Assembly: GCF_009557615.1 (NCBI RefSeq)
Contig: NZ_CP045652.1
Span: 2,852,001 to 2,916,000, forward strand
Length of the DNA stretch: 64,000 bases
Direction: 5' to 3'
DNA from: Sphingobacteruim zhuxiongii
GTDB lineage: Bacteria; Bacteroidota; Bacteroidia; Sphingobacteriales; Sphingobacteriaceae
In this document: piece by piece, positions 44,336-61,797 of the stretch
Layout: each line of letters opens with the position of its first letter
Position numbering within the stretch: the first letter of the stretch is position 1
Position numbers and translations under genes: made by a program
Notes under the pieces: model-generated
Databases searched by the model: none
What the model saw: only the letters and a program-made list of their open reading frames with translations
What the model was told of the DNA's origin: nothing

Positions 44336-45511
44336 TTATCGAACGAATAATGCGTTCTCTGTTTGTTCTAATGTACTATAGACTTTATATAAGGCTCTAG
44401 GAACGTGAAAACATCCTTTCCATTTACCACCTTTTAGCGTTAGTAATGGATTTCCTTGACGATTCAGGTATCCGTACCACTCGCCGAATTCTGGATCGCT
44501 AAATCTGTTGAATGCATAGTTATCCAACTTCTCAAACCATTCTTTACAATCTTGACGTCCTGTATACGCATAACCTTTTGCCATACATACAAGCGCCTCA
44601 AGATGTACCCACCATAATTTCTGATCCCACTCTAATTGTAGAAGTGGCTTATCTAATATATCCTTGAAATAAAGAATACCTTCAAACTCGTTATCCCATC
44701 CATAGTTTAGCGCACGGATCGCAATGTCAATACAGCGGTTCATCAATTCACCATCTTCTCTACGTATAGCTAGGTCCATCATAAACCACATAGCCTCGAT
44801 AATATGACCTGGATTCACCAAACGCCCTTCGAATGTGTCGGAAAACGATCCATCAAGATTAACACTCTCCATGATAAGCCCGGTATCCTTTTGATAAAAC
44901 ACTTCCATCACTTCATGCATTACCTCATCGATCAAACGATCGACAGTTTGCTTATCGATTATGTGTTCTAATTCCAGTGCTAGATTACTAAGAATCATAG
45001 GTAAAGAAAACCCTTTAAGGGAGCGGGTATTCGGGAATTGTTTGTTGTATTTTCCTTTCGGGTTGTCACGACGCTCTAGAATTCGATTAAACGTATCTAC
45101 CGCGACTTGCGCATACTCGTCTTTATTTTCGATTTTGTATAAGGCACTTAAGCCCATGGTTGCGAAACAATCTGAAAAGATATTATAGGGCTGCACTAGA
45201 GGTTTTCCTGTGCGGTCTAAAGCAAAATACCAATCTCCTTGTGCATCTCTTCCATTCTTCAAGATAAACTCTGCCCCTTGGATCGCCATTGCCTTCCACT
45301 CTGCATTTTGCTCCACTTCGTTATACATTGTCGCCATAGTCCAAATTTGACGTCCTTGCAACCACATAAACTTATCGGTTTCAAAAACGCGACCTTCGCG
45401 ATCTAAACAGGTGAAGTATCCTCCAAATTCATTATCGTTCGAATTCTTCGTCCAAAATGGAAGGACATTCTGCAGCAGTTCCTGTTTATACTTATTCACA
45501 AAATCCATCAT
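44336..45511 (-). CDS. AGE family epimerase/isomerase (N-acylglucosamine 2-epimerase-like)
   Basis: The 391-residue protein is an (alpha/alpha)6 barrel of the AGE family. Visible motifs are FMWLQGRQIWTMATMY, NIFSDCFATMGLSALY, NPGHIIEAMWF with one active-site His, LWWVHLEALVCM with another, and KGCFHVPRAL with the third. In Bacteroides the sialic acid pathway uses an AGE-type enzyme (NanE) to turn ManNAc into GlcNAc. Other members act on free sugars such as cellobiose or mannose. It is the last gene of the 12-gene operon starting at 61797, 9 bp after the DUF4434 gene. The lyase at 42037 lies in another operon nearby, so a shared ManNAc step is possible but unproven. Confidence 0.9.
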   Translation of the reverse strand: MMDFVNKYKQELLQNVLPFWTKNSNDNEFGGYFTCLDREGRVFETDKFMWLQGRQIWTMATMYNEVEQNAEWKAMAIQGAEFILKNGRDAQGDWYFALDRTGKPLVQPYNIFSDCFATMGLSALYKIENKDEYAQVAVDTFNRILERRDNPKGKYNKQFPNTRSLKGFSLPMILSNLALELEHIIDKQTVDRLIDEVMHEVMEVFYQKDTGLIMESVNLDGSFSDTFEGRLVNPGHIIEAMWFMMDLAIRREDGELMNRCIDIAIRALNYGWDNEFEGILYFKDILDKPLLQLEWDQKLWWVHLEALVCMAKGYAYTGRQDCKEWFEKLDNYAFNRFSDPEFGEWYGYLNRQGNPLLTLKGGKWKGCFHVPRALYKVYSTLEQTENALFVR

Positions 45512-45520
45512 ATCTTTTGC

Positions 45521-46456
45521 TTATTTCAATTTTTCTAAATACTCTTTGTATCGGTTAAATAAATGTCCAGCCTGTAAATAAGCAGACTGTGGGCTCATAA
45601 AATGTGAAAACTCAAACGTTATTGCTTTATCATAACCAGCATTACGTGCGGCTTCCAACTTAAGTCTTAATTTTTCAAATTTAATTGGCAAGAACTTAAT
45701 CGGCATATCGCGGTCGAAAGACTCAGCATTGGTCCAGCATTCCATACCATATCGATCTGCAAGTTTTTTATTTACAGAAAAGAAGTCTTCAAGTTCATGG
45801 TAATCGATGTGACCATCTTGAAAGGCAACTGCATCTACGGCGTGGTGTATTTCATGGAAGATCTCATCCCATTCGCGCTCATGTTCTTGGATAGAAACGA
45901 CATCAGCCTTCGATAATGAAGAAGAGGAAGCCATAACAGCTTTCTTACCATCAATCCAAGGAGATATCAAGGTCGGAAGATTATTACTAACACCTTTACA
46001 TTGCTCCCCTAAAACACGGAAAGCTGTAGCAGCACCTTTGGTTTTGCGACTAATTTCCATGCTGAGGTACCAACCGCCAAAGCTTGAATAATGACCATAT
46101 TTAGACCAAACCTCATCGATCACATAGCGATTCGCATCGATCTCATGTTGCATATTTCCAGTATCCCAATAGCGTCCGCTATCGTAAAGTCCGAAATAAA
46201 ACTTTAAGCCATGCTTTTCAGCAAGCTGAAGAAACATTTCGACCAAGTCTTCACTTGGCGCATAGCATCCATATTCTTTTTGCAACCAAGGTGAAGGATA
46301 CGTTATAAAACGACGGTAACCGCTACGAATCATGATGACTGTATCGATCCCGACGGACTTCATATGTGCAAAATCCTGATCCCACTCTGCTCTTCCCCAG
46401 TTTTGATGAGGAATATCATGACTGATTTCGTCAATAAAAGTTCCTGTAATTCTCAT
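45521..46456 (-). CDS. DUF4434-like TIM-barrel protein (cytoplasmic)
   Basis: The 311-residue protein starts RITGTFIDEISHDIPHQNWGRAEWDQDFAHMKSVGIDTVIMIRSGY (first part MRITGTFIDEISHDIPHQNWG), matching the DUF4434/DUF5109 group of glycoside-hydrolase-like barrels. LKFYFGLYDSGRYWDTGN, GWYLSMEIS, AVAFQDGHIDYHE and AITFEFSHFMSP mark successive strands, with acidic residues at their ends. No signal peptide is seen, so unlike most PUL glycosidases it may act on an imported oligosaccharide in the cytoplasm. It overlaps the GDSL gene by 1 bp and lies 9 bp before the AGE epimerase gene. Activity is unknown. Confidence 0.75.
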   Translation of the reverse strand: MRITGTFIDEISHDIPHQNWGRAEWDQDFAHMKSVGIDTVIMIRSGYRRFITYPSPWLQKEYGCYAPSEDLVEMFLQLAEKHGLKFYFGLYDSGRYWDTGNMQHEIDANRYVIDEVWSKYGHYSSFGGWYLSMEISRKTKGAATAFRVLGEQCKGVSNNLPTLISPWIDGKKAVMASSSSLSKADVVSIQEHEREWDEIFHEIHHAVDAVAFQDGHIDYHELEDFFSVNKKLADRYGMECWTNAESFDRDMPIKFLPIKFEKLRLKLEAARNAGYDKAITFEFSHFMSPQSAYLQAGHLFNRYKEYLEKLK

Positions 46457-47139
46457 TATAAATATTTCTTAGCTTTCAGATATTCTACCCAACGGATATA
46501 ACCTTCCGTATTAATGTGAATACCATCTGATGTATACTTTTCTAATAATTTATCTCCCTCGCCGAGTACATTGCTCAACTCAACATAAGTCAACTTATAT
46601 TTTGTGGCAAGCACTTGAATTCCGGTATTTAAATTTCTAATCGCCTGTGCTTTGCCCTTCAGATAATCATACTTGATCACATCTTCGTTGAGTGGCAAGG
46701 TACTTTGTACATATATCTTGGTCTTCGGACTATTTTTCTTAATAATTTGAATCACTTCCTCATAGTTTTTTAAAGACCATTCTGTTGGAAGCCCTCTTCC
46801 GATATCGTTAATGCCCATCATTAAGAATATCTTTTTCGGTTTAGTTTTCACAACATCAGCAACACGAGCTTTCATCCCAAATGTATTATCTCCACCAATA
46901 CCGCGATTTCCAATTTTAAGCTTTCCGCCAATCAGTTCTTGCCAAGGACCACGCTCCGTGATACTATTTCCAAAAAACACCAAGTCTGTCTTTGTATCTT
47001 TTAATCCTTGATAAAGCTTCTCACGCGAAACGTAATACCAGTTATTGTATGTGCTATCTCTAGACAGTTCTTTCTTCTCCTGTGCGTTTCCTTGTGTAAA
47101 GCAAAGAAGGGTCGCTATAATCAATAAACAAGTTTTCAT
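46456..47139 (-). CDS. SGNH/GDSL hydrolase, secreted (first of tandem pair)
   Basis: The 227-residue protein has a short signal peptide (LLIIATLLCFTQGNA). SGNH blocks are DLVFFGNSITERG (nucleophile Ser in GNSIT), IGNRGIGGDNTFG (Gly), MMGINDIGRG (Asn) and TSDGIHINTEGY (Asp, His). It is probably a carbohydrate O-acetylesterase in the periplasm or on the surface. The following gene (2 bp upstream, 47141-47818) is a paralog with the same layout; the two differ throughout, so this is not a recent duplication. Together with the DUF5009 acyltransferase-like protein they suggest that the substrate of the operon is O- or N-acetylated. Confidence 0.88.
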   Translation of the reverse strand: MKTCLLIIATLLCFTQGNAQEKKELSRDSTYNNWYYVSREKLYQGLKDTKTDLVFFGNSITERGPWQELIGGKLKIGNRGIGGDNTFGMKARVADVVKTKPKKIFLMMGINDIGRGLPTEWSLKNYEEVIQIIKKNSPKTKIYVQSTLPLNEDVIKYDYLKGKAQAIRNLNTGIQVLATKYKLTYVELSNVLGEGDKLLEKYTSDGIHINTEGYIRWVEYLKAKKYL

Positions 47140-47140
47140 C

Positions 47141-47818
47141 TTATAAGTATTTCTTGGCTTTTAAATAATTGATATATGGGATATAGGCTGCTACTTCCAA
47201 ATGAATACCATCTGGTGTCATATCCGCTTTTAACTGACCCTTTTCATCCGCAATTACTGGATATAAATCAACGAAAGTAACATTTTTATAAGTAGTGCTC
47301 AATTGCTTCAACTCCGTATTGATTTTTGATAGGTCTGTATTTTTAACCTGCTTAAATGCTTCGATTAATTTAGCGTCATTGATAGGCAATAGGCTACTCA
47401 AATAGATTTGAGTTTTAGGGGACTCTTGTTGTATACGTTTAATAATCTTATTATAATTTGCGATTATCATAGCTGCAGGTACATTTCTCTTTAAGTCGTT
47501 CACCCCAATCATCAAGAAAACCTTTTTAGGTTGATGACGAATTATCTCCTCCAAGCGAGCAACAACACCGAAAGAAATATCACCGCTAATTCCTCTATTT
47601 AATATTGGCAATTCAGGAGCAATATCTTCCCAGCGACCCGCCTCTGTTAAACTGTCACCCAAGAAAATAACAGCGCCCTTCTTTACTGGCATCTTATTGA
47701 AGAAAGCGACACGATCAGTATAGCCAGAAAAAACATAATTACTATCTACCGCCACTTGCGCGTTAAGACTCTTAGTCAAGAGACCTAACATGATTAAACT
47801 AAAATATTTCAATTTCAT
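47141..47818 (-). CDS. SGNH/GDSL hydrolase, secreted (second of tandem pair)
   Basis: The 225-residue protein has a signal peptide (YFSLIMLGLLTKSLNAQ). SGNH blocks are VIFLGDSLTEAGRW (Ser), LNRGISGDISFG (Gly), MIGVNDLKRN (Asn) and PDGIHLEVAAY (Asp, His). The order and spacing match the neighbour at 46456-47139, including the shared C-terminal YLKAKKYL. The variation between the two around the nucleophile (RGPWQ versus AGRWE) could mean they act on different acetyl positions. It is 1 bp from its paralog and 31 bp after the DUF5009 gene. A periplasmic or surface deacetylase acting on the imported glycan is likely; the specific ester is not known. Confidence 0.88.
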   Translation of the reverse strand: MKLKYFSLIMLGLLTKSLNAQVAVDSNYVFSGYTDRVAFFNKMPVKKGAVIFLGDSLTEAGRWEDIAPELPILNRGISGDISFGVVARLEEIIRHQPKKVFLMIGVNDLKRNVPAAMIIANYNKIIKRIQQESPKTQIYLSSLLPINDAKLIEAFKQVKNTDLSKINTELKQLSTTYKNVTFVDLYPVIADEKGQLKADMTPDGIHLEVAAYIPYINYLKAKKYL

Positions 47819-47849
47819 TTATGTATCGTTAGTATGTTTATAATCGAAT

Positions 47850-49262
47850 TTATGAACGCCAAAACCATTGACGTCTTGTACAATAACCGGTAAAAAAGAT
47901 CATGAGCACAATAAATATGACTGTTCTAATTAGCCCTAAATAGGGACTTGTACTACCAAGTTGATCTAATACAGGCAATACCTGAATTAATCCTAAGATC
48001 GGCGTAATAAAAAACGCGGAGACACTATAGGCAATCATTGGATTTTGACCACAGCGTACTAAGGATTGGATAATCATATTATTCTTCCAGAATGTTACTA
48101 AGTAGTCACATGTTAGATAAAATATAAATGCCAATCCGCTTGTGATAAACCAATAGCTGAAAGTTGATGGATCTTTTTTGATCCCACCATCAAGGGGCTC
48201 GAAGAATAAGCCCATTGTTGAAAATGCAAAACCACATAATACTAACTGTTTGTAAAAAGCGATTTTACCTACCGTTTTATCTTTCAATAGAAAATAAAAC
48301 ACCAATGCGAACAGGGCGTGCCCTATTAAATCAAGCATGATCCATCGTTCATATAAACAAACAACATGGAATGCGACAAACAAGAACCCTAGAGTTGCAA
48401 GAATAGCTGTTGATTTCTTTTCTTCATCAGTAAAAGGAGTTTGAAAGATCTCCTTATGCTTCCATATCAGATCTCCCAATATAGAACCAGGTAAGACTAT
48501 ACATAGGTATTTTAGAAATGCAAAGTTATAGAACCAGTGTATCTCAGGATGAAAATTCCAAATGTAAGCCGTCCAACTTCCCGGGATATCCTTGGTAAAC
48601 CAAATACCCATGAAGCATATAAGAATTACAATTCTTATAAAAATATTATTGGCCGATAGCAGCCAAAATAAGGTTCCGAATACTGCCATATTGGCTAGTA
48701 CTAGAATGATAATATTACTTTTTTCTTTGTGAAACGTATTGCCTAATACCTCGCTATGATAATATGTGAGTAGGATAAGTATCAAGGCCCCTAAGGCTTG
48801 AAGACCATATTTTCTCCATACGGTTCCCTCAAAGCGCATAAAAAGTAAAAAGAACGCGGCAAAGGCTGTTAATGAGCTAAGATAGTTTAATGTCTTACTC
48901 CCAGTTAGATTTTCTGGAGTCAAATATGCTAATGCAATTGCAAATACGACAAGTAAAAGTCCTCTCCTAAGTATGATTTTACTTATCGAGCCGAACTTTC
49001 CTGCATCATAAGATTTCTTGAGGGCAAATGGGAACGCAGCCCCCATAGAAAAAAGAAAAAAAGGAAAAACTAAATCTACCCATGTTATGCCAGGTCGATC
49101 TGGATTAAACTTGAAGTCAGGTGGGGCTACTTGTGCATGATACATCCAACCTGGAAATTCAGATGTCCAAGGAATCACTGCAGCCAAAACCATCCCAACT
49201 ATCGCCAATCCTCTTAACAGATCGATACTGAGATTTCTATATTTTTTTACAGGTGTATTCAA
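47850..49262 (-). CDS. DUF5009 / heparan-alpha-glucosaminide N-acetyltransferase-like membrane protein
   Basis: The 470-residue integral membrane protein has about 11-12 helices. The opening KYRNLSIDLLRGLAIVGMVL and GITWVDLVFPFFLFSMGAAFPFAL are typical of the HGSNAT/YeiB-related family (DUF5009). The His and Arg/Asp in these loops are conserved in acyl transfer. In animals HGSNAT moves acetyl from cytosolic acetyl-CoA to luminal glucosamine; in Bacteroidota PULs DUF5009 proteins are thought to acetylate or deacylate sugars in the periplasm, without proof. It lies between a GH-like set and two GDSL esterases, which strengthens an acyl-group role. A hairpin lies upstream (49291-49321). Activity is unknown. 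Confidence 0.8.
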   Translation of the reverse strand: MNTPVKKYRNLSIDLLRGLAIVGMVLAAVIPWTSEFPGWMYHAQVAPPDFKFNPDRPGITWVDLVFPFFLFSMGAAFPFALKKSYDAGKFGSISKIILRRGLLLVVFAIALAYLTPENLTGSKTLNYLSSLTAFAAFFLLFMRFEGTVWRKYGLQALGALILILLTYYHSEVLGNTFHKEKSNIIILVLANMAVFGTLFWLLSANNIFIRIVILICFMGIWFTKDIPGSWTAYIWNFHPEIHWFYNFAFLKYLCIVLPGSILGDLIWKHKEIFQTPFTDEEKKSTAILATLGFLFVAFHVVCLYERWIMLDLIGHALFALVFYFLLKDKTVGKIAFYKQLVLCGFAFSTMGLFFEPLDGGIKKDPSTFSYWFITSGLAFIFYLTCDYLVTFWKNNMIIQSLVRCGQNPMIAYSVSAFFITPILGLIQVLPVLDQLGSTSPYLGLIRTVIFIVLMIFFTGYCTRRQWFWRS

Positions 49263-49343: not shown

Positions 49344-50522
49344 TTATTTTAAGTCGATCGGCACCAAAATCATTGGCGTCGGTAGACAGGATGCACCCGG
49401 AGGCGAATACGTGAAATTAATCTCTTGAATTTCTTTCTTCGGGTCTGGTTTGTAAATCTTAATTAAAATCGCTTCAGGAGCAGCTCTAGTGACAAGCTGG
49501 TTGCTAGGATACTGGCTTATTGATTTTTTGCCTTGCGCATCGAAAACCTCCATCGTTAATCCCATGCCGCCACACCACTGATTGTCTGCAGAACGACTAT
49601 TCCATGTGATTAATGCAAGTCCTTTACCGTCTGTACTTTTCCACTTGATATTAGTGTCGTATAATACGCCGTAGTTTCCAGCATTCTTGGCAGGCTGTTT
49701 ATCTGAACCGATTGTACCTGTGATCCAAGGATCATCTTCACCATCAGCAATAATCAACTGTTGAACCCCTTGTTTAGTATCTAACGTATCTGCACTTACA
49801 ATCTTGTAGTTAGATACTGGGAATATGCCACGTCCTGCATTCACATGACTAAATGGAACGATAGTATCTATTTTAGAAAACGCTTCTGCTGTATTACGAT
49901 CTGGTGCCGTTTGAACAACAGAAATCAAAGCAGGTTGATCTACTACAAATTCATAAATACCGTGAACAAGTTCATCGTATTTAGCAATTTGTTTTTCCAT
50001 TTGATCATCGATTGGAATTACTTCTCCTGGTTTGATTACTTTCACTACATTCACTTCTTCCGATCTGAAGTAATCTTCTAAACCTTGCTTTCCAATTTTG
50101 AAATAATTAGTACTTGGTGCTTGAGAAGAAAATTTAAGCATTCTTAAGTGCAAATTTTCTTTTCCAAGATTCTTAATAACGGCATTAATTTTTCTAGAAA
50201 TCTGTGTCGGTTCCTTTACACCATTTACATTGTAAACATATAATCTCACTGCTCCAAGAGCTACTTGCTCTTGCATTACGATAGCCTCAGGAATACGAAT
50301 ATATTCAGGGTCATCGGAAATCAAAAACTGAGGGCCAGGAACAACGGTTTGTTTAAAAGCAATTTTCTTAAAATCAGGTTTTAGAAAGTTCTTTAAAATA
50401 ACCGTCTCTCCTTCTTTCGCATTTCTCAGCGTTTTAGAGATTGTAGATAGATTTTCTTGAGCCAACGATACTTGTTGAAACAAGAACGGAATAGCAAGTA
50501 ATGTGATAAATTTTTTAAGCAT
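49344..50522 (-). CDS. Secreted protein of unknown function in SusCD operon
   Basis: I do not recognise a family. From the ATG at 50522 (chosen because a signal peptide LKKFITLLAIPFLFQQVSLAQ begins there; the frame to 50570 overlaps the neighbour) the protein has 392 residues. The mature part seems beta-rich. The segments ADGEDDPWITGTIGSDKQ and KGLALITWNSRSADNQWCGGMGL look like a conserved sheet with two Cys residues (WCGG, SCLPT), which may form a disulfide. EAILIKIYKPDPKKEIQEINF resembles a carbohydrate-binding beta-sandwich strand set. It is 11 bp after the GHL10-like gene. It may bind or deacetylate glycan on the surface; this is a guess from context. Confidence 0.6.
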   Translation of the reverse strand: MLKKFITLLAIPFLFQQVSLAQENLSTISKTLRNAKEGETVILKNFLKPDFKKIAFKQTVVPGPQFLISDDPEYIRIPEAIVMQEQVALGAVRLYVYNVNGVKEPTQISRKINAVIKNLGKENLHLRMLKFSSQAPSTNYFKIGKQGLEDYFRSEEVNVVKVIKPGEVIPIDDQMEKQIAKYDELVHGIYEFVVDQPALISVVQTAPDRNTAEAFSKIDTIVPFSHVNAGRGIFPVSNYKIVSADTLDTKQGVQQLIIADGEDDPWITGTIGSDKQPAKNAGNYGVLYDTNIKWKSTDGKGLALITWNSRSADNQWCGGMGLTMEVFDAQGKKSISQYPSNQLVTRAAPEAILIKIYKPDPKKEIQEINFTYSPPGASCLPTPMILVPIDLK

Positions 50523-50533: not shown

Positions 50534-51847
50534 TTATTTTGTTAAACCTTCTTTTAAATAATCCCACCATCCATAGTTAATGACATGGACGATATCAAAT
50601 ATCATTGAGCCTTCAGATTTTGCTCGGCACATCTTTAAAGCCTTGACAAACTGCTCAGGGTGCCCTTTATATTGCTCAACATAAAGTCCTGCATATACTG
50701 GTGTTTCGCCCATAGTGACGCGATTTACTAACTCTGCAGATCCCTCAACTGTATACCAATCTTCTTGTGCGACAGTTAAACCAGACTCCAACTTCTTTTG
50801 GTCATCTTTCTTCAAAATCTCAGATTTCTCTACTTCGAAATAATAATTACCCGTGGTAAACAAATCTAAAGCCTCAGCATATGCGTAGTTTTTATACTCC
50901 GCAGACGCCCATTCAAATTCCTTTGAAGGATCATAATTCTTGCTGGCAAAGTTTACTCCTACATCGTAATACAATGGATACCAAGACCCTGTATAATCAC
51001 CGAAAACAATATTAGGATTGATACCTTTAAGTGCCGCTCGTGCTTCAAAAATGAAGTCATGAATAATCTTCGCTCTCCAAGTCAACCATTCTTTAAAGTA
51101 GATTCCATCAACGCGTTTGCCATCTTGATATTCGTAAATATCTGCCGGAAATTTCGCTAATGGTTTTCCCAAATAGTTCTCAAACTGCTTTTTACTTTCC
51201 TCTGAAAAATCAGCATTTAAATTATCAAAGCGAACACGATCGAGAATTATTCCATCCAATTTAGGATACATTGAAACGAGTTCTTTCAAAATTGAAAGCT
51301 CATATTGACGAACTTCCGCTAACACTGGATTAATCATCGCCGAATACTTATTCTTCTGCTCAGTGATTAGCTTAAACCCTTCTGGTAAATAAGACTTTGT
51401 TCGCCAATGAGCCTTTGTCGCGTCATCATAAACAACGCCACGATCGAAATAATTATGTCCAGCAACAAAAACGTTTGTGGACGCATGAATCTTTAAGCCT
51501 AATTGATGTCCTTTTTCAATAAAATAGCTTAACATATCCCAAGAAAGATCCTTTTTTGTTTTTGATTCACCCCAAGAAATCATTACAGGTGCAATCTTAC
51601 TAGGATATAAAACTTCGCCAGTAATGGGTTTCACATCCACTACGATGTCTGTCACACCTACTTCTTTCGACTTTTGAAGGTAAAAAAGAATAGAGTCTTT
51701 ATGACAGAATCTATCAAAATTCGCTGTCGCATCAAACCATAGAATATTCCTATCAATGAAAGGCTTATCCTTAGCTGCTTGTTGCTTGCGAACTCCACAG
51801 GAACTGAATAAAATTGTAATGATAAAAGCTATACTTAATAATCTCAT
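50534..51847 (-). CDS. GHL10-like TIM-barrel lipoprotein (first paralog)
   Basis: The 437-residue protein has a lipoprotein signal (IAFIITILFSSC). A beta/alpha barrel of the glycoside-hydrolase-like GHL10/DUF187 type follows: DIVVDVKPITGEVLYPS, GLKIHASTNVFVAGH, KLDGIILDRVRFDNLNADFS (strand end with Asp), IVFGDYTGSWYP and GNYYFEVE. The C-terminal EGSMIFDIVHVINYGWWDYLKEGL closes the barrel. The gene at 51857 is a close layout paralog (LDGLMLDYARYTDINADFS; FGAYVGAWYTTYYQVGVNWASKDYDP), so the two are a tandem pair. Such proteins are annotated as alpha-amylase-like or family-10-like without known activity. Lipidation suggests a surface position. 9 bp between the two genes. Confidence 0.75.
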   Translation of the reverse strand: MRLLSIAFIITILFSSCGVRKQQAAKDKPFIDRNILWFDATANFDRFCHKDSILFYLQKSKEVGVTDIVVDVKPITGEVLYPSKIAPVMISWGESKTKKDLSWDMLSYFIEKGHQLGLKIHASTNVFVAGHNYFDRGVVYDDATKAHWRTKSYLPEGFKLITEQKNKYSAMINPVLAEVRQYELSILKELVSMYPKLDGIILDRVRFDNLNADFSEESKKQFENYLGKPLAKFPADIYEYQDGKRVDGIYFKEWLTWRAKIIHDFIFEARAALKGINPNIVFGDYTGSWYPLYYDVGVNFASKNYDPSKEFEWASAEYKNYAYAEALDLFTTGNYYFEVEKSEILKKDDQKKLESGLTVAQEDWYTVEGSAELVNRVTMGETPVYAGLYVEQYKGHPEQFVKALKMCRAKSEGSMIFDIVHVINYGWWDYLKEGLTK

Positions 51848-51856: not shown

Positions 51857-53254
51857 TTAGTTTTTCACACCATCTTTAACGGCATCAAATAATTCTTGTT
51901 TTAGCATATTATATTGTGGAGCATACATATGAACAACATCAAAAAGCATCACTCCACCGGATGTTCTTGAAAGGATATATTTAATTGCTTTACTAATCTC
52001 AGCTTTGTTCGCGTAGTTGATATTACCTACGTCAATACTACCGTAGATTGGCGCCTTCCCTTTCGTGATATAATCAATACCATTTAGCGAACCTTCGATA
52101 CTCCACCAGTGATATTTCAAATTTGCAGTAGCCGGATTATCTGCTAGACGAATCTGGGTAAAATAATTACCTGTCATCAGCATATCCATCTCTTCAAAAT
52201 ACCCAGTTGCACTGTAACCGGGATACCCCCAGTCAAAACGCAATTCAAAATCCTGGAAAGGATCGTAATCTTTACTCGCCCAATTCACACCTACTTGGTA
52301 GTAAGTCGTGTACCATGCGCCAACATACGCTCCGAATTTTGCTTCCGGTTTTACTGACTTGACAGCTTGACGCGCCTTCTTAACGAAATCTTGAATAACG
52401 CCAGTTCGGTAGACAAGCCATTGCTTATAGTACTTCCCAGTTACATTTGGTAATAGTTGCCCTGATTGTTCCTTCCATGAACTTACAATATCCGAGGGAA
52501 AATTGATCTTGTCCGCTTGGTTATCATTATATTTTTCTTTTAAGAAGGATATGAACTGTTGTTTACTATAATCAGAGAAATCTGCATTAATATCGGTGTA
52601 ACGAGCGTAGTCTAACATTAGCCCATCCAATTGAAATTTAGCAGTAATTTCTTTAATCATATTTAGCACGCGGTTTTGTACTTCCGGCTGCGCTGGATTA
52701 ACGAAGATATTCTTTCCAGTTTCAGAAATTCGACCTAACTGACCTTGCGTATTCTTCACCACGATCGATTCGTATTTGTCTTTGAAATCCGCATCATCAA
52801 AAGCGTGGCCCATATTTCTACCCCCGTCACCTTCAACAAAAGTAACGATCGACAGATAAGCTTTCATCTCCCGCTTTTTCGCTTCAGAAATTAAGAATTC
52901 CACATAATCTGCTGGTTTATTCTTACCATCTAAACTTGTAAACTCCTTAGCATAGGCACTATTATACATCGTATAACCCGAGCTAGGCTTAACATCAATG
53001 ACTAAACCGGTAACTCCACAATCTTTTAACTTATCGAGAATCTTTACAATTTCTTCCTTGCTATTAAACTTACCATAAGTACCAAAAACATTCGAACGAG
53101 CGTCTACCCAAACAAGCACTTGCTTGCCAGCTTCATTAGTTGGTGGGGTTTCCGGATCAGGTTTATCAATTGGTTTTTCTGTTCCTGAATCTTTAGAACA
53201 AGATCCTAAAGCGACAATCGCTAATGCAGCAAATATTGATTTCCATTTCATCAT
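51857..53254 (-). CDS. GHL10-like TIM-barrel lipoprotein (second paralog)
   Basis: The 465-residue protein has a lipoprotein signal (SIFAALAIVALGSC) and a short Pro/Asp/Glu-rich linker (GTEKPIDKPDPETPPTN), as often in surface lipoproteins. Barrel segments match the neighbour at 50534: LVIDVKPSSGYTMYNS, MKAYLSIVTFVEGDGG, QLDGLMLDYARYTDINADFS, KFGAYVGAWYTTYYQVG, MLMTGNYFTQI and GGVMLFDVVHMYAPQYN. The shared G-Y-F/W and D-V-V-H segments mark an ancient tandem duplication followed by divergence. The extra loop around residues 225-250 (LLPNVTGKYYKQW) differs in the neighbour, so substrate range may differ. No GH family can be assigned. A 12-bp perfect hairpin lies just upstream (53269-53296). Confidence 0.75.
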   Translation of the reverse strand: MMKWKSIFAALAIVALGSCSKDSGTEKPIDKPDPETPPTNEAGKQVLVWVDARSNVFGTYGKFNSKEEIVKILDKLKDCGVTGLVIDVKPSSGYTMYNSAYAKEFTSLDGKNKPADYVEFLISEAKKREMKAYLSIVTFVEGDGGRNMGHAFDDADFKDKYESIVVKNTQGQLGRISETGKNIFVNPAQPEVQNRVLNMIKEITAKFQLDGLMLDYARYTDINADFSDYSKQQFISFLKEKYNDNQADKINFPSDIVSSWKEQSGQLLPNVTGKYYKQWLVYRTGVIQDFVKKARQAVKSVKPEAKFGAYVGAWYTTYYQVGVNWASKDYDPFQDFELRFDWGYPGYSATGYFEEMDMLMTGNYFTQIRLADNPATANLKYHWWSIEGSLNGIDYITKGKAPIYGSIDVGNINYANKAEISKAIKYILSRTSGGVMLFDVVHMYAPQYNMLKQELFDAVKDGVKN

Positions 53255-53312: not shown

Positions 53313-54989
53313 TTACAAGTCTACGCAGTCATACTGCACGCCCACTACATAACCATTCGTGAACATGAAATACAAATACATATAGAAGCCATTGTCAGAA
53401 ACAGCCATGATTACATCGCCAGTTCCGTTTGCATTAGCCGGTTGACTGGTTCCAGCACGACCATAAGCGCCTTTTGGTGCCGCCCAAACTAACCCTGGGG
53501 TAGTTGCCAATGAAGGATTTCCACTGAAACCACCTTCTGTATCAATCAAGTAAACCTGATCTGCTGATCCCCAATCAAAACTATTGATATGGTTATAGGC
53601 AACATATTTACCATTGTTGAAGTTGGTAAAATCAACAGAATTCGCGATAAAGTTCGCATCTAGCTTTTCTAGATTTGCTGCTAATGAATTCGTTACTCCA
53701 TTCAGTTTTGCTAACCTATTATCCGAATATCCAATTGCATAATACTCATTCGAAGGATCTGATGGATTCGTGTAAATGATATCAATATTGTTATTTGACC
53801 AAGCATAGTCACTGACCGTAACAATAGTCGGCGTATTAGAAACTAATACCCCATTCGTTACTTGCCAACGAGCAAATGTTTTATCATTTGCTTCATGGAA
53901 TGGAGCAGTAATCAATGCGTTCTTGGTTACATCACCAATAATAGATACGCGTCTTCCTAACTTTTTACCAGCAGCATCCCATTCAATGAATGGAACCAAT
54001 GGTGATGAAACAGAAGTCGCTTTCCATATTTTGAAAACATTGCCATCATTCGGAACCAAGTTGTTCAAGAAAAAGTTACCACCATCATCTGAGGTATTAT
54101 TGAAGTTTCTTAAGCTTCCTTTTTTGTCTCCTAATTCAATAGCACCAAGTTTCTCACCTGTAAATGCATTGATGTATACACTGTTTTCACCTCTAGTATT
54201 CAATACTAAATGCTTACCAACGACTGCTAAGCTGTTTGTCATATTGTCTACAGAAATACCTAAATCAGCTTTCAGTTTTTTCGCAAACATAATCTTAGCA
54301 CTGTTTTGACGAATACCTTTTGGAAGTTTTATCGCATCAACTGCTTTCAAACTGTATGTGCGTGTCGCATTTCCAGCCGATGAAACGGTAAATGGTAGTG
54401 CGGTTGACAAACTAATTGAAGAACCATTCGTAATGGAACCAGAAGAATGCTTATTTAAGACGTAAGTTAACTTTGGATTGACTAATTGCGTCCCGGGAAC
54501 AATCGAGAAGTTCACGACATTTCCAACAACAATTGCATCAACTTCCTGAGGAACGCCCGCTTGATCTTCAAAATTGATCGTCGCGCCGAAGATATCTGTA
54601 TTTCCTTTTTTGCTTGCGACAATCACATATTGTTTAGAAGAGCCGTCACCAGCGATCACCGAAACATTGATAGGCTTCGATAAATCGCTAATCCCCTCTA
54701 AAGAAGGTTCAATGCGCGAATCAACTGGAATAGAAGCTTTTAAAAGCACTTTCGATAAATCCACTTCATTATCCGAGTCAATTGGATAATAATAATCAAT
54801 ATCAACATAGACCGTATCGTTACTGATACGACTTTCGAATAATCTTGATCGGCCAGAGCCATCCAATGTGGCATAGAAATCAGCGATATCCGATTTATCA
54901 TTTGGCGCTACATAATCTGGCTTCTGACAAGAGCCAAATGTTAAGGCTCCAAGAAGCCCCGCCACTGTATATTTTATAATCTTTTTCAT
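53313..54989 (-). CDS. DUF5018-like surface lipoprotein in SusCD operon
   Basis: The 558-residue protein has a lipoprotein signal (AGLLGALTFGSC). The first part has two Ig-like DUF5018-type modules (DLSKVLLKASIPVDSRIEPSL and KPINVSVIAGDGSSKQYVIVASKK, shortened). A propeller-like region with repeated hydrophobic strand pairs follows from about residue 230 to the end (LVLNTRGENSVYINAFTG, DKTFARWQVTNGV, DIIYTNPSDP). It lies 19 bp after susD, the usual place for SusE/SusF-like glycan-binding proteins. The propeller shape is by eye. It likely binds glycan at the cell surface. A strong hairpin follows the stop (53269-53296). Confidence 0.72.
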   Translation of the reverse strand: MKKIIKYTVAGLLGALTFGSCQKPDYVAPNDKSDIADFYATLDGSGRSRLFESRISNDTVYVDIDYYYPIDSDNEVDLSKVLLKASIPVDSRIEPSLEGISDLSKPINVSVIAGDGSSKQYVIVASKKGNTDIFGATINFEDQAGVPQEVDAIVVGNVVNFSIVPGTQLVNPKLTYVLNKHSSGSITNGSSISLSTALPFTVSSAGNATRTYSLKAVDAIKLPKGIRQNSAKIMFAKKLKADLGISVDNMTNSLAVVGKHLVLNTRGENSVYINAFTGEKLGAIELGDKKGSLRNFNNTSDDGGNFFLNNLVPNDGNVFKIWKATSVSSPLVPFIEWDAAGKKLGRRVSIIGDVTKNALITAPFHEANDKTFARWQVTNGVLVSNTPTIVTVSDYAWSNNNIDIIYTNPSDPSNEYYAIGYSDNRLAKLNGVTNSLAANLEKLDANFIANSVDFTNFNNGKYVAYNHINSFDWGSADQVYLIDTEGGFSGNPSLATTPGLVWAAPKGAYGRAGTSQPANANGTGDVIMAVSDNGFYMYLYFMFTNGYVVGVQYDCVDL

Positions 54990-56711: not shown

Positions 56712-59700
56712 TTAAAAAGTGACGTTAAGACCAAATGAGTAAATCTTTTGTTGTGGATAGAAACCATTGTTCACATTTGGCATCTCTGGATCTAAATACT
56801 TTAGGTAATCCCAAGTAAATAAGTTCGATCCCGTAACAAACAAACGAACGTTTTCAATCTTAGCTTTCTCTGTCATGGTCTTAGGCAAAGTATAACCCAA
56901 TTGAACTGATTTTAAACGTAGGTAGTCGCCTTTACGAATCCAAGCGGAGTTAGCATTTGCATTATGTGCAGACATACCCGTTGCTTTGTACGAACTTAAT
57001 CTTGGAAACTCTGCATTTGGATTATCAGGAGTCCATGAATTCTCTACTAAGAAATAAGGAGAGTTACCGAAACCGTAAAATGTTCTTGTAAATGGCGTGT
57101 TATCATCAACGCCAGAAGTACCAGAAGAACCCTCATAAGTTCCCGCTAAATTCACGTCAACCAATGCCGCACCTTGCAATAGCGCTGAGAAATCAAACCC
57201 TTTGTAGGCTAAATCAATATTTAATCCGAAAGTCAACTCTGGAACATTCGAACGACCGATGAAAGTTCTATCCCCAGCAGCAGTTAAACGGCCGTCACCG
57301 TTAAGATCTTTAAAATTGTAAAATCCTGGAGCAATAACACCCGAACTTGGAGACATGGCATTATTTGCCTCTTCCCAAGTTTGAATCATCCCATCAACAA
57401 CGAAACCAGTCTTCTCGCCCACTGAACGACCAATAACGCTTAAATATGAAGGTGTTCCCGCAGGCTCTTCATACTTCAAATATCTATTTTTCGACCAGTT
57501 AATATTACCTGTTAATCCTAAGCGGAAATCGCCATAGGTATCTCTATACTTAATTTGCGCATCAAAACCACGGTTATCCATTTCGCCAATATTGGCAAGT
57601 GAAGGATAATAACCTCCAATCGATGACGGATATAAGTTTCCTACACCACCTAAAATACCTGTGGTATAGCGATAGAACCATTCAAAGTCGAAACCTAATT
57701 TATTATCTAAGAAGAATGACTCAAACCCAACATTAAACATGGTTGATTCTTCCCACTTTAGTGTAGGATTAGGAATATTCGAGGTATAGATTGCCGTCAC
57801 AGGCTTTCCGTCGATTACAACAACAGGAGCAGTATTTTGTACAAATGTAGCGAGATAAGGGAATGTACCAACTTGTGCGCGATCGTTACCAGATTTACCA
57901 TAGGAAGTTTTCAACTTCAAGTAGTTAATACCTTTCAAACTACTAAAGAAGTCTTCATTTGACACAACCCAGCCTAAACCAACACCTGGAAAGGATTTCC
58001 AACGATTTTCAGGCGAAAAATTCGCCGAGGCATCCCAACGTGCTGCGGCTTCCAATAAATATTTGCTCTTATAAGCATAATTTACACGTGCTACGACACC
58101 TGCACGCGCTTGTTCCGCATCAGAAGTACCTGTCGGTGTTATAAAATCAAGTGGATCCTTCGAACCATAATTAATTTCTTGAATAATATCAATAGGTAGA
58201 TTCGATGCGCCAGTAGAGAATAAATTTCCTTTTTGGCTAGAAAACTCATATAAAGTCAGTAAGGAAAGGCTATGATCTGTAGCGATAATTTTATCGTAAT
58301 TCAGACTTGCTTGAAGTGTCTTTCTATAAGTTGCGGAATATGCTTGACGTAACGTACTCTTTGTAATACCTGGCAAAGTTGATAAAGCAACATAATCACC
58401 TGTAACTTGATCCCTAGCACGGCCCATAGTTTCATAAGGTGTTAACCAAGTTTTGCTCTCTTGGTTAGAGTAATCATACGCTCCTTGAACCTTAGCTTGC
58501 AAGCCTTCAACACCCGGTACACGCAATGTAACATTAGCCTGACCCTGAAATACATTAGCGTTATATTTTTGATAACCCGAATTATCTACTGCCGCCAATG
58601 GATTTACATATCCAGCGTTTGAGGCGTAGGAAGTAGGCAAGCCATTGGGCGCATACATCGGCATATTTGGCAATGTTCGAACCGCTTGGTAGAATGGGTT
58701 CATGTAAGCGGTGTTATCTGGCGAAATACCCGGAGTATTCGTTAACTGATTACGCAAACCAACATTCAATCCTACAGATAAATAATCTGTTAGGCGGCTA
58801 TTTAAATTTGTACGAACGTTATAACGTTTGAAGTTCGTATTCTTAACCACACCATCTTGATCCATATGGTTCACCGCCGCAAAGTATTGCGTATTTGAGT
58901 TACCACCAGAAATCGTTGCAGAGTGATGTTGTGATTGTGAGTTATTATCAACTAACATACCTACCCAATCCGTATTTCCGAATAATGGATTTGTATTCGT
59001 TCCATTGCGTACTGCATCGATTAAGTCTTGAGAATAAACCAATGCTGCGGGATCTTGATTAGTATTTAATAAGAAATCATTATCTACTTCGATACCTTTA
59101 TTATACCAAGTCATATAATCTGGTCCATCTAAAAACTTCGGGAAACGCGTGTTTTGACCAAGACTATACGAGAAGTCATAAGATACCTTTGCGGGAGATT
59201 CTTTTCCTGACTTTGTCTTAACGATAATAATACCATTTGCTGCTTGAACACCGTAAGCTGCAGTAGCTACCGCATCTTTTAAAACGGAAATAGACTCAAT
59301 CTCGTTGGGATCTAAATAAGCTAATGTAGACGAAGGTCTTTCCACATCATCGACAATAACTAAAGGACTACGGTTTGAACCATAAGTACCGATACCACGC
59401 ACATAAAGTGCTGATCCATCAGCTCCTGGACGACCAGATTGCTGTACGGCAGATAAACCAGGTAGACGTCCTGCTAATGTATTCGTGATATTTTGTGTAG
59501 GCGTTCTTTTTAACTCATCTCCTTTAATCTGAGCAACAGAACCAACCATTGTACCTTTCTTTTGTGTTCCATAAGCAACAACCATTACTTCTTCTAGTGC
59601 ATTGTCTTCAGATGCTAAAGTAATCGTGTTGTTCGATGCACTATTGATTACAACTTCTTTCGATTTAAAACCGATAAATTGAACTTGTAATGTTACTGGT

Positions 59701-59921
59701 AATCCGTCGACTTGCACTTCAAATGCTCCCCGTTGGTCGGACATCACTGTCTGACCTTTACCTTTTACTTTCACAGTCGCACCAGCCACCGCCGCATTCT
59801 GATCATCCTTAATCAATCCGCGAACAATAGACTGCGCATAGGAAGCCATTGTTTGCATGAGTAAGAACATCAAACAGAACACCTTAAAAATCAAAGATTT
59901 GCTCTTTTTTAGATGATTCAT
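56712..59921 (-). CDS. SusC/RagA family TonB-linked outer-membrane transporter
   Basis: The 1069-residue protein has a signal peptide (VFCLMFLLMQTMASYAQ) and a CarboxypepD-reg-like domain (IVRGLIKDDQNAAVAGATVK, residues about 32-105). A TonB box EEVMVVAYGTQKKGTMVGSV leads into a plug with LVIVDDVERPSSTL and the signature TAAYGVQAANGIIIVKTKSG, and the barrel ends QQKIYSFGLNVTF. It lies 13 bp after the FAD oxidoreductase gene and 8 bp before susD. It probably imports the glycan handled by the downstream enzymes. Differs strongly from the SusC-like protein at 38798. Confidence 0.96.
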   Translation of the reverse strand: MNHLKKSKSLIFKVFCLMFLLMQTMASYAQSIVRGLIKDDQNAAVAGATVKVKGKGQTVMSDQRGAFEVQVDGLPVTLQVQFIGFKSKEVVINSASNNTITLASEDNALEEVMVVAYGTQKKGTMVGSVAQIKGDELKRTPTQNITNTLAGRLPGLSAVQQSGRPGADGSALYVRGIGTYGSNRSPLVIVDDVERPSSTLAYLDPNEIESISVLKDAVATAAYGVQAANGIIIVKTKSGKESPAKVSYDFSYSLGQNTRFPKFLDGPDYMTWYNKGIEVDNDFLLNTNQDPAALVYSQDLIDAVRNGTNTNPLFGNTDWVGMLVDNNSQSQHHSATISGGNSNTQYFAAVNHMDQDGVVKNTNFKRYNVRTNLNSRLTDYLSVGLNVGLRNQLTNTPGISPDNTAYMNPFYQAVRTLPNMPMYAPNGLPTSYASNAGYVNPLAAVDNSGYQKYNANVFQGQANVTLRVPGVEGLQAKVQGAYDYSNQESKTWLTPYETMGRARDQVTGDYVALSTLPGITKSTLRQAYSATYRKTLQASLNYDKIIATDHSLSLLTLYEFSSQKGNLFSTGASNLPIDIIQEINYGSKDPLDFITPTGTSDAEQARAGVVARVNYAYKSKYLLEAAARWDASANFSPENRWKSFPGVGLGWVVSNEDFFSSLKGINYLKLKTSYGKSGNDRAQVGTFPYLATFVQNTAPVVVIDGKPVTAIYTSNIPNPTLKWEESTMFNVGFESFFLDNKLGFDFEWFYRYTTGILGGVGNLYPSSIGGYYPSLANIGEMDNRGFDAQIKYRDTYGDFRLGLTGNINWSKNRYLKYEEPAGTPSYLSVIGRSVGEKTGFVVDGMIQTWEEANNAMSPSSGVIAPGFYNFKDLNGDGRLTAAGDRTFIGRSNVPELTFGLNIDLAYKGFDFSALLQGAALVDVNLAGTYEGSSGTSGVDDNTPFTRTFYGFGNSPYFLVENSWTPDNPNAEFPRLSSYKATGMSAHNANANSAWIRKGDYLRLKSVQLGYTLPKTMTEKAKIENVRLFVTGSNLFTWDYLKYLDPEMPNVNNGFYPQQKIYSFGLNVTF

Positions 59922-59934
59922 AATTAAATGTTTA

Positions 59935-61797
59935 TTAAAATTGTTTGTTTTTTAAATGACCCGCATAGTCAATTTCTTGACCGAACAGGTTAAGGACCTT
60001 ATCTAAAATAACCGCAACGGTTCTTCTATTCAATTTGCTTTTATGATCTGTAAAAACAAGATTTTCCTTAGCGAGAATTTGTGCTAAAGCCTCTACTGAC
60101 ACATCCTTTTTTACATACTTTAACATGGCACTCATCGATTCAAGATCTAAAGCTTCCCCAGAAGCATCCCAATTCGTTTGAAGTGCAGGATAATATAAGC
60201 GAAGCCCCTGCATCAACTCATATTGACTCACTTCACGCTCTGGATAGAACCAGGTCTGATTAGCCCATTTGTAAGGAATTCCAGTACCCCTTAAAAGTCC
60301 AGTCGCTCCAATTTTCTGCAATTCCTTAAATTGTGGATCTGTAGCAGGCACATCTATATAAGGCATGATATAAGCTTTGTGATCTAGTAGTGCTGCTTGT
60401 ACGTCTCTAATCGAGACTTCAGAAGGTTGCTTGTTTTGCTTAACCGCCACGGCTGCTAATGCACCAGACGCTTGTCCTATTCCTAAGACAACTGGTTGCA
60501 ATCGAGTCGCTCCATTTACGATATTGCTCACCCCAATACTTTTTTCAGACACAATCAATCCTTCGAATTCCGCAGGAATTAAAGAGCCCATGGGAACATT
60601 ATAAGAGGGAACACGAATTTTTACGAAATCAATTTCTGGAGCATTACCATATTTATAGTGATGATGATCGATTGTGTAATCGCCAACCGCAATTCCTGTT
60701 TTATAATAAGCTTCATCAGTTTCAAAAGGTGTCATTATGTGTTGAAGTGCAAAAAGAGATTTTGCCTTCAATCGACGCGATTCACGATGATAAGGAATCA
60801 TCGGAAAACCATCCTTCGTCGGATATTCATCATATGCGATTCCAAGATGCTTGAAACCTAATTCATGTTGTATATAGTAAACAAAACGCAGCGTCATTTG
60901 CTTGGCTTCTTCTAACGCCTTCGTTCGCTCGCTATTTGACTTCTCAATAATGTTTAGATAGATATCATTGCCCTTCTTCGGCCAATTAATCATAAACTTA
61001 TTGTTAGGCAAGCCGCCATACGTTAGCATCTTATAGCAATCATTATTATTCTTTAAGTGGGTAGCCGGATCAGAAACATCACAACAGCCCGCGAATTCAC
61101 TCGGATCATAATTTTTTGGCTTTTTAATGGTTTTATCCGCACCTTGTCCAAAATCCTTTAACGTAATAACATACGTTAGATCCTGAATAATATCGTTGCC
61201 TTCATTTAAAGCAAAGCTCTCTTTCGTCAACGACTTACTGTCCATTCCTAAATAATAAGGAACTTTAAGATTCGCCATCACGTCACCCAACTCGGTAGCG
61301 TCGATAAGTACTTTGGCTTCAATATGAATGATCTTTCCTTTTTTACCTCTTGCTTCAATTTTCCAACCATTTGCCGTTTTTACAGGATTAGCCCAAGTCG
61401 TTTCAAACATGACTTGAATATTCGACTCCTGCCCTACCATCTCTTGAAGTATTTTGTTACCTATCGAGGGTTCAAAAAGTGTATTACTTACCCAGCCTGT
61501 TTCAACAGCTGCAGCCCCGCCGTAGTGGCTATATAATTTTTCTCTAAACTCCCCCCATAAGCCCGATGGCATTTTATGGTTACCATCAATAGCAGAAACA
61601 CCGGCAGACGTTAACATTCCTCCTAACCAAACAGTTTCCTCTAGAACAATAGATTTTACGCCCAAGCGAGACGCTTGAATGGCAGCCATCGTGCCGCTAG
61701 CACCTCCACCGACGATAATAATATCAGTTTTGAGTTGTCCGAATACTTGAGTTAGCGATAAAAAGAGAACAAAGCACAATAAGTAAATTTTCTTCAT
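59935..61797 (-). CDS. Secreted FAD-dependent oxidoreductase (PF12831-like)
   Basis: The 620-residue protein has a signal peptide (IYLLCFVLFLSLTQVFG) followed by the FAD-binding stretch TDIIIVGGGASGTMAAIQASRLG, quoted as IIIVGGGASGTMAAIQ, and VKSIVLEETVWLGGML. AKVLIDATELGDVM and LEGLIVSEKSIGVSNIVNGATRLQP (in part) are also typical of this family. A C-C-D motif (AGCCDVSDPATH) is present. The last 120 residues resemble S-layer-homology-like repeats (IGATGLLRGTGIPYKWANQTWFYPEREVS, shortened). Such enzymes sit at the head of many Bacteroidota polysaccharide loci, but no natural substrate is agreed. It is the first gene of the 12-gene operon and likely acts in the periplasm or on the surface. Confidence 0.85.
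   Translation of the reverse strand: MKKIYLLCFVLFLSLTQVFGQLKTDIIIVGGGASGTMAAIQASRLGVKSIVLEETVWLGGMLTSAGVSAIDGNHKMPSGLWGEFREKLYSHYGGAAAVETGWVSNTLFEPSIGNKILQEMVGQESNIQVMFETTWANPVKTANGWKIEARGKKGKIIHIEAKVLIDATELGDVMANLKVPYYLGMDSKSLTKESFALNEGNDIIQDLTYVITLKDFGQGADKTIKKPKNYDPSEFAGCCDVSDPATHLKNNNDCYKMLTYGGLPNNKFMINWPKKGNDIYLNIIEKSNSERTKALEEAKQMTLRFVYYIQHELGFKHLGIAYDEYPTKDGFPMIPYHRESRRLKAKSLFALQHIMTPFETDEAYYKTGIAVGDYTIDHHHYKYGNAPEIDFVKIRVPSYNVPMGSLIPAEFEGLIVSEKSIGVSNIVNGATRLQPVVLGIGQASGALAAVAVKQNKQPSEVSIRDVQAALLDHKAYIMPYIDVPATDPQFKELQKIGATGLLRGTGIPYKWANQTWFYPEREVSQYELMQGLRLYYPALQTNWDASGEALDLESMSAMLKYVKKDVSVEALAQILAKENLVFTDHKSKLNRRTVAVILDKVLNLFGQEIDYAGHLKNKQF

Follow-up and report, generated by a model that had tools for sequence, protein, structure and literature searches.

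Sus-like polysaccharide utilization loci (PULs) of Bacteroidota group a SusC/SusD pair, surface lipoproteins, periplasmic enzymes, an inner-membrane transporter, and a dedicated regulator in one cluster. The nan loci of the same phylum (NanL-NanE-NanT with SusCD) hold an amino-sugar 2-epimerase, an MFS transporter, acetylesterases, and SusCD. Two enzyme families are also relevant here. One is GHL10, of which the sole member assayed, the lytic transglycosylase Cwp19 of Clostridioides difficile, degrades peptidoglycan (PMC6016235). The other is NAGPA (PF09992, N-acetylglucosamine-1-phosphodiester alpha-N-acetylglucosaminidase). Here, we describe an operon with the features listed above for both kinds of locus, found in a 64 kb stretch of Sphingobacterium DNA that was analyzed as a whole and is referred to as the window.

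The operon consists of 12 genes on the minus strand at 44336–61797, the location given by the first-pass annotation, and is real. Intergenic distances run from -1 to 81 bp, the majority below 60 bp, and terminator-like hairpins lie 3' of the epimerase gene (44303–44277) and 5' of the FAD gene (61953–61906). Adjacent SusC and SusD homologues (8 bp gap), co-located with glycan-processing genes, mark the locus as a PUL. It had been described as a SusCD operon without classical glycoside hydrolases (GHs), and we confirmed its gene content and coordinates. A Pfam search of the 12 genes gave no assigned GH or polysaccharide lyase (PL) family and matched only SGNH esterases. The absence of classical GHs thus holds for the window by Pfam but not for its relatives, as GH20, GH92, or GH97 adjoin some related operons. 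No published PUL matching this locus was found in the open-access literature. See Table 1 for all features.

Table 1. Features of the operon and its upstream flank (window coordinates)
Feature	Coordinates	Strand	Supporting evidence
N-acylglucosamine (GlcNAc/ManNAc) 2-epimerase, cytoplasmic	44336..45511	-	NCBIfam NF052547, 633 bits vs cut-off 600
DUF4434 TIM-barrel protein without signal peptide	45521..46456	-	Pfam E 1.4e-85
SGNH esterase 1 (SGNH/GDSL), secreted	46456..47139	-	Pfam PF13472 E 8.7e-25
SGNH esterase 2 (SGNH/GDSL), secreted	47141..47818	-	Pfam PF13472 E 1.1e-25
DUF5009 inner-membrane protein	47850..49262	-	Pfam PF16401 E 4.4e-57
UNK392, secreted mostly-beta protein, 392 aa	49344..50522	-	12 homologues, 51-71% identical
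GHL10a, GHL10 + DUF4985 lipoprotein	50534..51847	-	Pfam DUF4985 E 6.4e-39, GHL10 E 1.6e-16; lipobox
GHL10b, GHL10 + DUF4985 lipoprotein	51857..53254	-	Pfam GHL10 E 2.6e-20, DUF4985 E 1.2e-19; lipobox
DUF5018 lipoprotein	53313..54989	-	Pfam E 2.2e-50; lipobox-like N-terminus
SusD-type surface glycan-binding protein, 564 aa	55009..56703	-	Pfam SusD_RagB E 1.7e-52
SusC-type TonB-dependent transporter, 1069 aa	56712..59921	-	Pfam Plug + CarbopepD_reg_2
FAD-dependent oxidoreductase, 620 aa	59935..61797	-	PF12831 E 2.6e-91; apparent N-terminal signal peptide
AT-rich palindrome, candidate regulator operator	61919..61940		upstream of FAD gene
MFS transporter, distant AmpG relative	61991..63277	-	Pfam MFS_1; TIGR00901 (AmpG family) E 2e-33, below cut-off
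Second palindrome copy, candidate operator	63448..63470		between MFS and ROK genes; 2 mismatches vs first
ROK-type regulator, N-terminal part, leaves window at edge	63534..63998	+	HTH_24; divergent from MFS

Because the MFS transporter and the divergent regulator gene both travel with the operon in relatives, the functional unit probably includes them as well. The MFS gene, separated from the FAD gene by 193 bp, is probably its own transcription unit yet a component of the system, and in several relatives it lies within the operon itself. The regulator is taken to be of the ROK type, its own match being to HTH_24; relatives encode a regulator of ~409 aa at the equivalent position. The two palindromes are the sole matches at up to four mismatches across the window, and comparable AT-rich palindromes occur 5' of the FAD gene in loci L034, L036, L040, L042, and L050. 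The DUF5018 lipoprotein, whose slot behind SusD is kept in relatives, is a probable surface glycan-binding protein.

The first-pass annotation regarded the barrel proteins as uncharacterized, and this stands: neither GHL10 nor DUF4434 has an assigned GH family in Pfam, and in the open-access literature we found no paper that links GHL10 to polysaccharide utilization or that names DUF4434. GHL10a and GHL10b are predicted surface glycanases. The two proteins score 60.8 and 73.2 bits against a GHL10 (PF02638) gathering cut-off of 27.9, and Cwp19 is distantly similar to both (E 3.4e-9 for GHL10a and 8.9e-9 for GHL10b). GHL10b residues D87, D215, and R218 are invariant, and E387 is nearly so. The DUF4434 protein is a predicted cytoplasmic exo-glycosidase in which E134 and E245 are invariant across eight sequences, with their placement at the ends of strands beta-4 and beta-7, where a clan GH-A-like glycosidase would have invariant Glu residues, made by eye and not from the coordinates of 4h41. 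That solved DUF4434 structure, ~75% identical to the window protein, is presumably BT_0435 of B. thetaiotaomicron, from the same region as BT0439. BT0439 has been implicated in host-glycan degradation (PMC5238430). The annotation of 4h41 as a “putative alpha-L-fucosidase” looks like a structural-genomics label, and no activity report for it was found in the open-access literature.

Acylation of the glycan, as previously suggested, is supported by the two SGNH esterases and by relatives in which a SASA esterase domain is joined to GHL10 or to NAGPA. The best PDB match of SGNH esterase 2 is 6njc, named a sialate O-acetylesterase / lysophospholipase L1 (E 5.9e-36). The suggestion that oxidation takes part is unsupported: the AlphaFold2 model of the FAD protein (pLDDT 86) retrieved only generic flavoproteins in a Foldseek search, at a whole-query TM score of ~0.3 or less. 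UNK392 had no match in Pfam, NCBIfam, or PDB sequences, and a fold search with its model (pLDDT 83) gave no overall fold match (TM ≤0.2). Its start is most likely at 50522 rather than 50570, since the resulting 392 residues agree with the lengths of its homologues. The FAD protein, DUF5009, and UNK392 have no place in the route proposed below. Three signals are absent from the first-pass annotation: an amino-sugar/ManNAc signature, a phosphodiester signature of sister operons, and the occurrence of this type of operon in Bacteroides from the gut.

The amino-sugar signature comprises NagB-type genes in relatives and the epimerase, which belongs to the GlcNAc/ManNAc 2-epimerase family by sequence and aligns full-length to the solved epimerases 6f04 (E 1.2e-148, residues 6–382) and 2gz6. 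Its direction could be toward ManNAc instead of GlcNAc. A literature search for N-acylglucosamine epimerase in PULs returned nothing relevant among open-access papers.

Comparing operons is more informative on the substrate than the window alone. We located relatives by DUF4434 alignment against genome contigs; a single-protein scan of the contigs with GHL10b gave no match. Related operons are found in Sphingobacterium, Pedobacter, Chitinophaga, Rufibacter, and gut Bacteroides, and the type is widespread across soil and gut species. Within 20 kb of DUF4434, NAGPA is present in 11 of 22 genomes (0.5 expected) and the calcineurin-like phosphoesterase MetallophosC in 13 of 22 (0.46 expected), a distance picked after the distances were seen; at 15 kb the counts are 7 and 10. 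As the genomes are related, the enrichment probabilities overstate independence. Additional named loci of this operon type also hold both families. Most operon NAGPA copies match the profile only from position ~55–60 on and form a divergent subgroup. Fusion proteins in relatives join GHL10-DUF4985 to MetallophosN/C, SASA to GHL10-DUF4985, and SASA to NAGPA, and Bacteroides joins esterase, NAGPA, phosphoesterase, and GHL10 domains in varying pairs. NAGPA and the metallophosphoesterase are absent from the window's operon and from those of genomes G039, G063, G064, and G200, so the case for phosphodiesters is taken over from relatives. Most loci pair DUF4434 with one of three transporter types, and 9 of 73 loci have a NagB-like GlcN-6-P deaminase gene after the operon.

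The simplest reading would be an O-acylated, phosphodiester-linked ManNAc/GlcNAc polymer. We tentatively propose, short of an even chance, that the operon is a PUL for an O-acylated ManNAc/GlcNAc bacterial glycan, most likely a Gram-positive cell-wall glycopolymer. The most likely candidates are polymers of the secondary cell-wall polysaccharide type and the conserved wall teichoic acid linker, ManNAc-beta-1,4-GlcNAc-alpha-1-phosphate. This linker is documented both for wall teichoic acids and for pyruvylated polymers of the cell wall, and a ManNAc-GlcNAc-GlcNAc repeat is documented for B. anthracis (PMC7831098).

Gene content, families, co-occurrence, fusions, and the epimerase clade are read directly from sequence, and we infer the substrates, the order of steps, and the DUF4434 reaction. 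GHL10a/b and the DUF5018 lipoprotein, with SusD, would capture and cleave the polymer on the outside of the cell, and fragments would enter the periplasm through SusC. There, SGNH esterases 1 and 2 may take off acyl groups, and in many relatives, though not from the window's operon, NAGPA and a metallophosphoesterase may open phosphodiester bonds. The MFS transporter would carry a small oligosaccharide into the cytoplasm, where DUF4434 might free ManNAc. If the substrate reading holds, DUF4434 is proposed to be an N-acetylmannosaminidase, a search term for which no open-access paper was found. The epimerase would then convert ManNAc to GlcNAc for ordinary GlcNAc catabolism, with the ROK protein a putative sugar sensor acting on the two candidate operators.

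Against a wall glycopolymer stands the scarcity of the glycerophosphodiesterase (GDPD) expected for glycerol-phosphate teichoic acids. The enzyme is absent from the window, whose operon has no teichoicase either, and occurs in 1 of 22 sister operons, a Bacteroides operon where it is fused to a 3-keto-disaccharide-hydrolase domain; GDPD, considered as an indicator of glycerol teichoic acid, was therefore not used as support. The operon core also contains no gene for breaking down ribitol or glycerol. The FAD protein that lacks a step in the route, an epimerase that could work toward ManNAc, and the implication of BT0439 in host-glycan degradation speak against a wall polymer as well. Literature searches on phosphodiester glycosidases in Bacteroidota and on teichoic acid with PULs gave nothing relevant among open-access papers. 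Outside the operon, a GDPD gene adjoins NAGPA in 11 of 22 genomes and MetallophosC in 6 of 22, which is suggestive only.

The co-occurrence and fusion data also suit an O-acetylated capsule or exopolysaccharide whose backbone is made of ManNAc-1-phosphate or GlcNAc-1-phosphate, like the meningococcal serogroup A polymer type; the phosphodiesters would then belong to the backbone rather than to a linker at the wall. Such a target is compatible with the chemistry of NAGPA, with acetylesterases, and with a ManNAc epimerase, and the NmA capsule, which is linked by anomeric phosphodiesters, is documented to be O-acetylated at C3/C4 (PMC7501274). We consider it unlikely, as the core glycosidases GHL10 and DUF4434 would not be needed, NAGPA is missing from half of the operons, and an operon so widespread in soil and gut species is expected to have a common substrate.

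GH92 and GH20, each in 6 of 73 loci, are also compatible with an N-glycan, a point against a wall polymer. The target would then be a eukaryotic N-glycan or phosphoglycan with GlcNAc-1-phosphate on mannose: NAGPA would uncover the phosphate, a phosphoesterase would remove it, and GH92 and GH20 would trim the remainder. This is distinctly unlikely, because the two GH families are found in few operons and not in the window's, the ManNAc epimerase would lack an evident role, and neither GHL10 nor DUF4434 is known to be connected with N-glycans.

Similarity to Cwp19, with its demonstrated activity, also suggests peptidoglycan, with the GHL10 proteins acting as lytic transglycosylases and the AmpG-like MFS carrier taking up muropeptides. 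We judge this very improbable. The operon lacks a peptidase, amidase, MurNAc kinase, and etherase, and a ManNAc-type epimerase would be useless for MurNAc. Furthermore, the carrier scores under the AmpG cut-off and gives way in relatives to SSF or sugar MFS carriers that are unrelated to it.

Finally, the ManNAc is probably not derived from sialic acid. None of the 12 genes encodes an N-acetylneuraminate lyase, and a search at E ≤1e-10 found no lyase in four operon-bearing genomes (G128, G196, G048, and G518). The window's genome holds a complete nan locus elsewhere (C1:155-175 kb) with a lyase, epimerase, NanT-like MFS, NanM, GH20, and SASA, and operon epimerases form a separate clade, 54–100% identical to each other versus 32–37% to the nan-type enzyme. 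A sialoglycan utilization locus with new sialidases, its epimerase serving sialic acid breakdown, is thus the least credible reading and is rejected as the main role on the epimerase clade and lyase search, despite recurrent SASA and sialate-esterase-like proteins and a neighboring cluster (34964–42936) with a BNR-repeat protein and a lyase-family gene, the latter sharing only 31% identity with the lyase of Bacteroides and scoring under the NCBIfam cut-offs.

More broadly, the operon may represent a widespread, undescribed PUL type with which environmental and gut Bacteroidota harvest Gram-positive wall ManNAc-GlcNAc-phosphate glycopolymers. DUF4434 would then be the first family of N-acetylmannosaminidases, and GHL10-DUF4985 would form a new family of glycanases that works with NAGPA and a metallophosphoesterase. 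We regard this full account as doubtful. If true, Bacteroidota would use a dedicated Sus-like system to eat wall polymers of Gram-positive neighbors, and carbon would pass between soil and gut bacteria by an unexplored route. DUF4434 and GHL10-DUF4985 would also gain functions, and enzymes cutting the teichoic-acid linker region would become available. Even with another glycan, this is a well-delimited, recurrent gene set whose substrate is directly testable, including in laboratory strains of Bacteroides.

Compared with typical PULs, the present operon matches no GH or PL family assigned in Pfam, and its barrels belong to uncharacterized families. The usual PUL regulators are hybrid two-component or sigma/anti-sigma systems, and here the regulator is ROK-type. 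Unlike nan loci, the operon has neither N-acetylneuraminate lyase nor sialidase, and its epimerase is of a distinct clade. NAGPA, absent from the window's operon, accompanies half of the sister operons, either inside or next to them, and also occurs as a fusion with an esterase domain. GHL10a and GHL10b share the GHL10 domain with Cwp19 and resemble it distantly across the barrel's first half; in contrast to Cwp19, they carry DUF4985 in place of wall-binding repeats and are lipoproteins in a PUL.

The first-pass annotation had called an operon of 12 genes here, and ORF and Pfam searches verified its presence and extent. All 12 genes lie on the minus strand with intergenic gaps of -1 to 81 bp, and terminator-like hairpins flank the operon downstream of the epimerase gene and upstream of the FAD gene. 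The MFS gene and the divergent ROK-type regulator gene next to it accompany the operon in relatives as well. Both intergenic regions flanking the MFS gene share an AT-rich palindrome, which is likely the operator of the ROK-type regulator; a search allowing up to 4 mismatches found no further copy in the 64 kb window. The genome carrying the window is 4.32 Mb, and among named records the nearest relatives of the window's proteins are from Sphingobacterium species, which suggests that the genome belongs to this genus. Beside the operon is a second cluster, common to genome G039 but missing from most operon relatives. It includes a protein of 557 aa that weakly matches GHL10; in genome G063 (locus L035), an 84% identical relative of this protein comes immediately after the operon and a bestrophin gene.

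Coordinates of the operon, its neighbors, and related loci (G000, the window's own genome; C1, contig; L numbers, extracted loci)
Feature	Sequence	Position	Content
Operon	Window, minus strand	44336-61797	FAD protein, SusC, SusD, DUF5018, GHL10b, GHL10a, UNK392, DUF5009, SGNH2, SGNH1, DUF4434, epimerase
MFS gene	Window	61991-63277	
ROK-type regulator gene	Window	from 63534	
Second cluster	Window	22249-42936	SusCD, N-acetylneuraminate-lyase-family gene, BNR-repeat protein, GntR regulator, NanM-like, PLP enzymes, M81 peptidase, AstE-like genes
557-aa protein	Window	22249-23922	
NAGPA and glycerophosphodiesterase genes	G000:C1	3723750 and 3724404	
Sialic acid locus (L190)	G000:C1	155001-175000	Two SusCD pairs, BNR protein, GH20, nan-type epimerase, SASA, NanT-like MFS, NanM-like, lyase
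Second epimerase locus (L189)	G000:C1	2231501-2251500	Epimerase, DUF4855 protein, SusCD, MFS gene
~290-aa secreted family	L045	1875-2807	
~290-aa secreted family	L049	17243	
~290-aa secreted family	L056	7521	
~290-aa secreted family	L066, L071		

A search of 201 genomes from the order found GHL10a relatives in 19 (E ≤ 1e-20). With E ≤ 1e-100 as the threshold, DUF4434 was present in 10 of the 296 genomes sampled across the phylum, and a Bacteroides-like genus, its name inferred from 90-100% DUF4434 identity to the solved relative 4h41, had it in 24 of 60 genomes. In a scan of named records, 80 loci were identified, in Sphingobacterium, Pedobacter, Chitinophaga, Rufibacter, Flavobacterium, Parabacteroides, Alistipes, Tannerella, and others. 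The recurring set comprises the FAD protein, SusCD, DUF5018, one or two GHL10 proteins, DUF5009, esterases, DUF4434, a transporter, the epimerase, and ROK. Variable among related operons are a phosphodiester glycosidase (NAGPA, PF09992), a metallophosphoesterase, the secreted 392-aa protein UNK392, and a secreted family of ~290 aa with no Pfam match, which 9 of 73 loci carry within or next to such an operon. In genomes G128 and G170 (L046-L048 and L193), the operon is split into two modules with one epimerase in each, the first with FAD/UNK392/DUF5009/SGNH/DUF4434 and the second with SusCD/DUF5018/GHL10/NAGPA, to which G170 adds a phosphoesterase.

Within 20 kb of DUF4434, a width picked after inspecting the data, NAGPA occurs in 11 of 22 genomes (0.5 expected) and a calcineurin-like phosphoesterase (MetallophosC) in 13 of 22 (0.46 expected); narrowing the width to 15 kb leaves 7 and 10 of 22, respectively. 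The nominal probabilities are below 1e-13, but kinship among the 22 genomes makes them overstate the independence of the cases. Proteins from Bacteroides fuse GHL10-DUF4985 to MetallophosN/C, the SASA esterase domain to GHL10-DUF4985, and SASA to NAGPA. Deacylation, phosphodiester cleavage, and GHL10 are therefore linked to a single substrate. The window's own operon has neither NAGPA nor a phosphoesterase. Elsewhere in its genome, NAGPA and glycerophosphodiesterase genes are adjacent, an arrangement seen in 11 of the 22 genomes examined.

The operon epimerase exceeds the NCBIfam cut-off for N-acylglucosamine 2-epimerase and aligns over its full length with solved GlcNAc 2-epimerases. It forms its own clade, with 32-37% identity to the nan-type epimerase, which adjoins N-acetylneuraminate lyase in a separate locus (C1:155-175 kb in the window's genome, a complete sialic acid locus). 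A lyase search found no match in four operon-bearing genomes (G128, G196, G048, and G518; E ≤ 1e-10). For these reasons, the ManNAc handled by the operon probably comes from the glycan itself. A NagB-like gene lies downstream of the operon in nine loci, which points to GlcN-6-P as the exit. The window's genome also has a second epimerase of the operon clade (59% identical) with a DUF4855 protein; DUF4855 adjoins the epimerase operon in G518 too, and proteins in L114 and L134 match both DUF4855 and the glycerophosphodiesterase domain GDPD.

Judging signal sequences by eye, GHL10a, GHL10b, and DUF5018 have apparent lipobox signals and are therefore predicted lipoproteins. The SusD N-terminus is likewise lipoprotein-like. 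The N-termini of the FAD protein, UNK392, and the two SGNH proteins resemble Sec signals. No signal was seen by eye in the window's DUF4434 or epimerase. Unlike this signal-free DUF4434, those of Bacteroidales have RRxFLK-like Tat signals at the N-terminus, which suggests that DUF4434 may act late, shortly before or after the final transport step.

The first-pass annotation read the enzymes as uncharacterized barrels, possibly combined with oxidation and deacetylation. The barrels stand, and SASA fusions in relatives agree with an acylated glycan. A role for oxidation was not supported, as the FAD protein model matches only generic flavoproteins in a structure search. This protein, a core member of the recurring set, has no role in the scheme proposed here. 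The UNK392 model is confident and predicted to be mostly beta, and a fold search with it matched no known fold. DUF5009 is a membrane family.

That annotation overlooked clues to the substrate. We consider it probable that the operon is a PUL whose target glycan is acylated and contains amino sugars. This target would be composed of ManNAc and GlcNAc, with acyl groups and phosphodiester links, matching Gram-positive cell-wall glycopolymers. Assigning the substrate specifically to such a glycopolymer is tentative, because the chain of inference is long and both phosphodiester enzymes are missing from the window's operon. A literature search found a single GHL10 enzyme with tested activity, which acts on a bacterial wall, although its substrate there is peptidoglycan (PMC6016235). 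Among known cell-wall polymers, the ManNAc-beta-1,4-GlcNAc-alpha-1-P linker is common to wall teichoic acids and pyruvylated polymers, the latter with ManNAc/GlcNAc repeats (PMC7831098).
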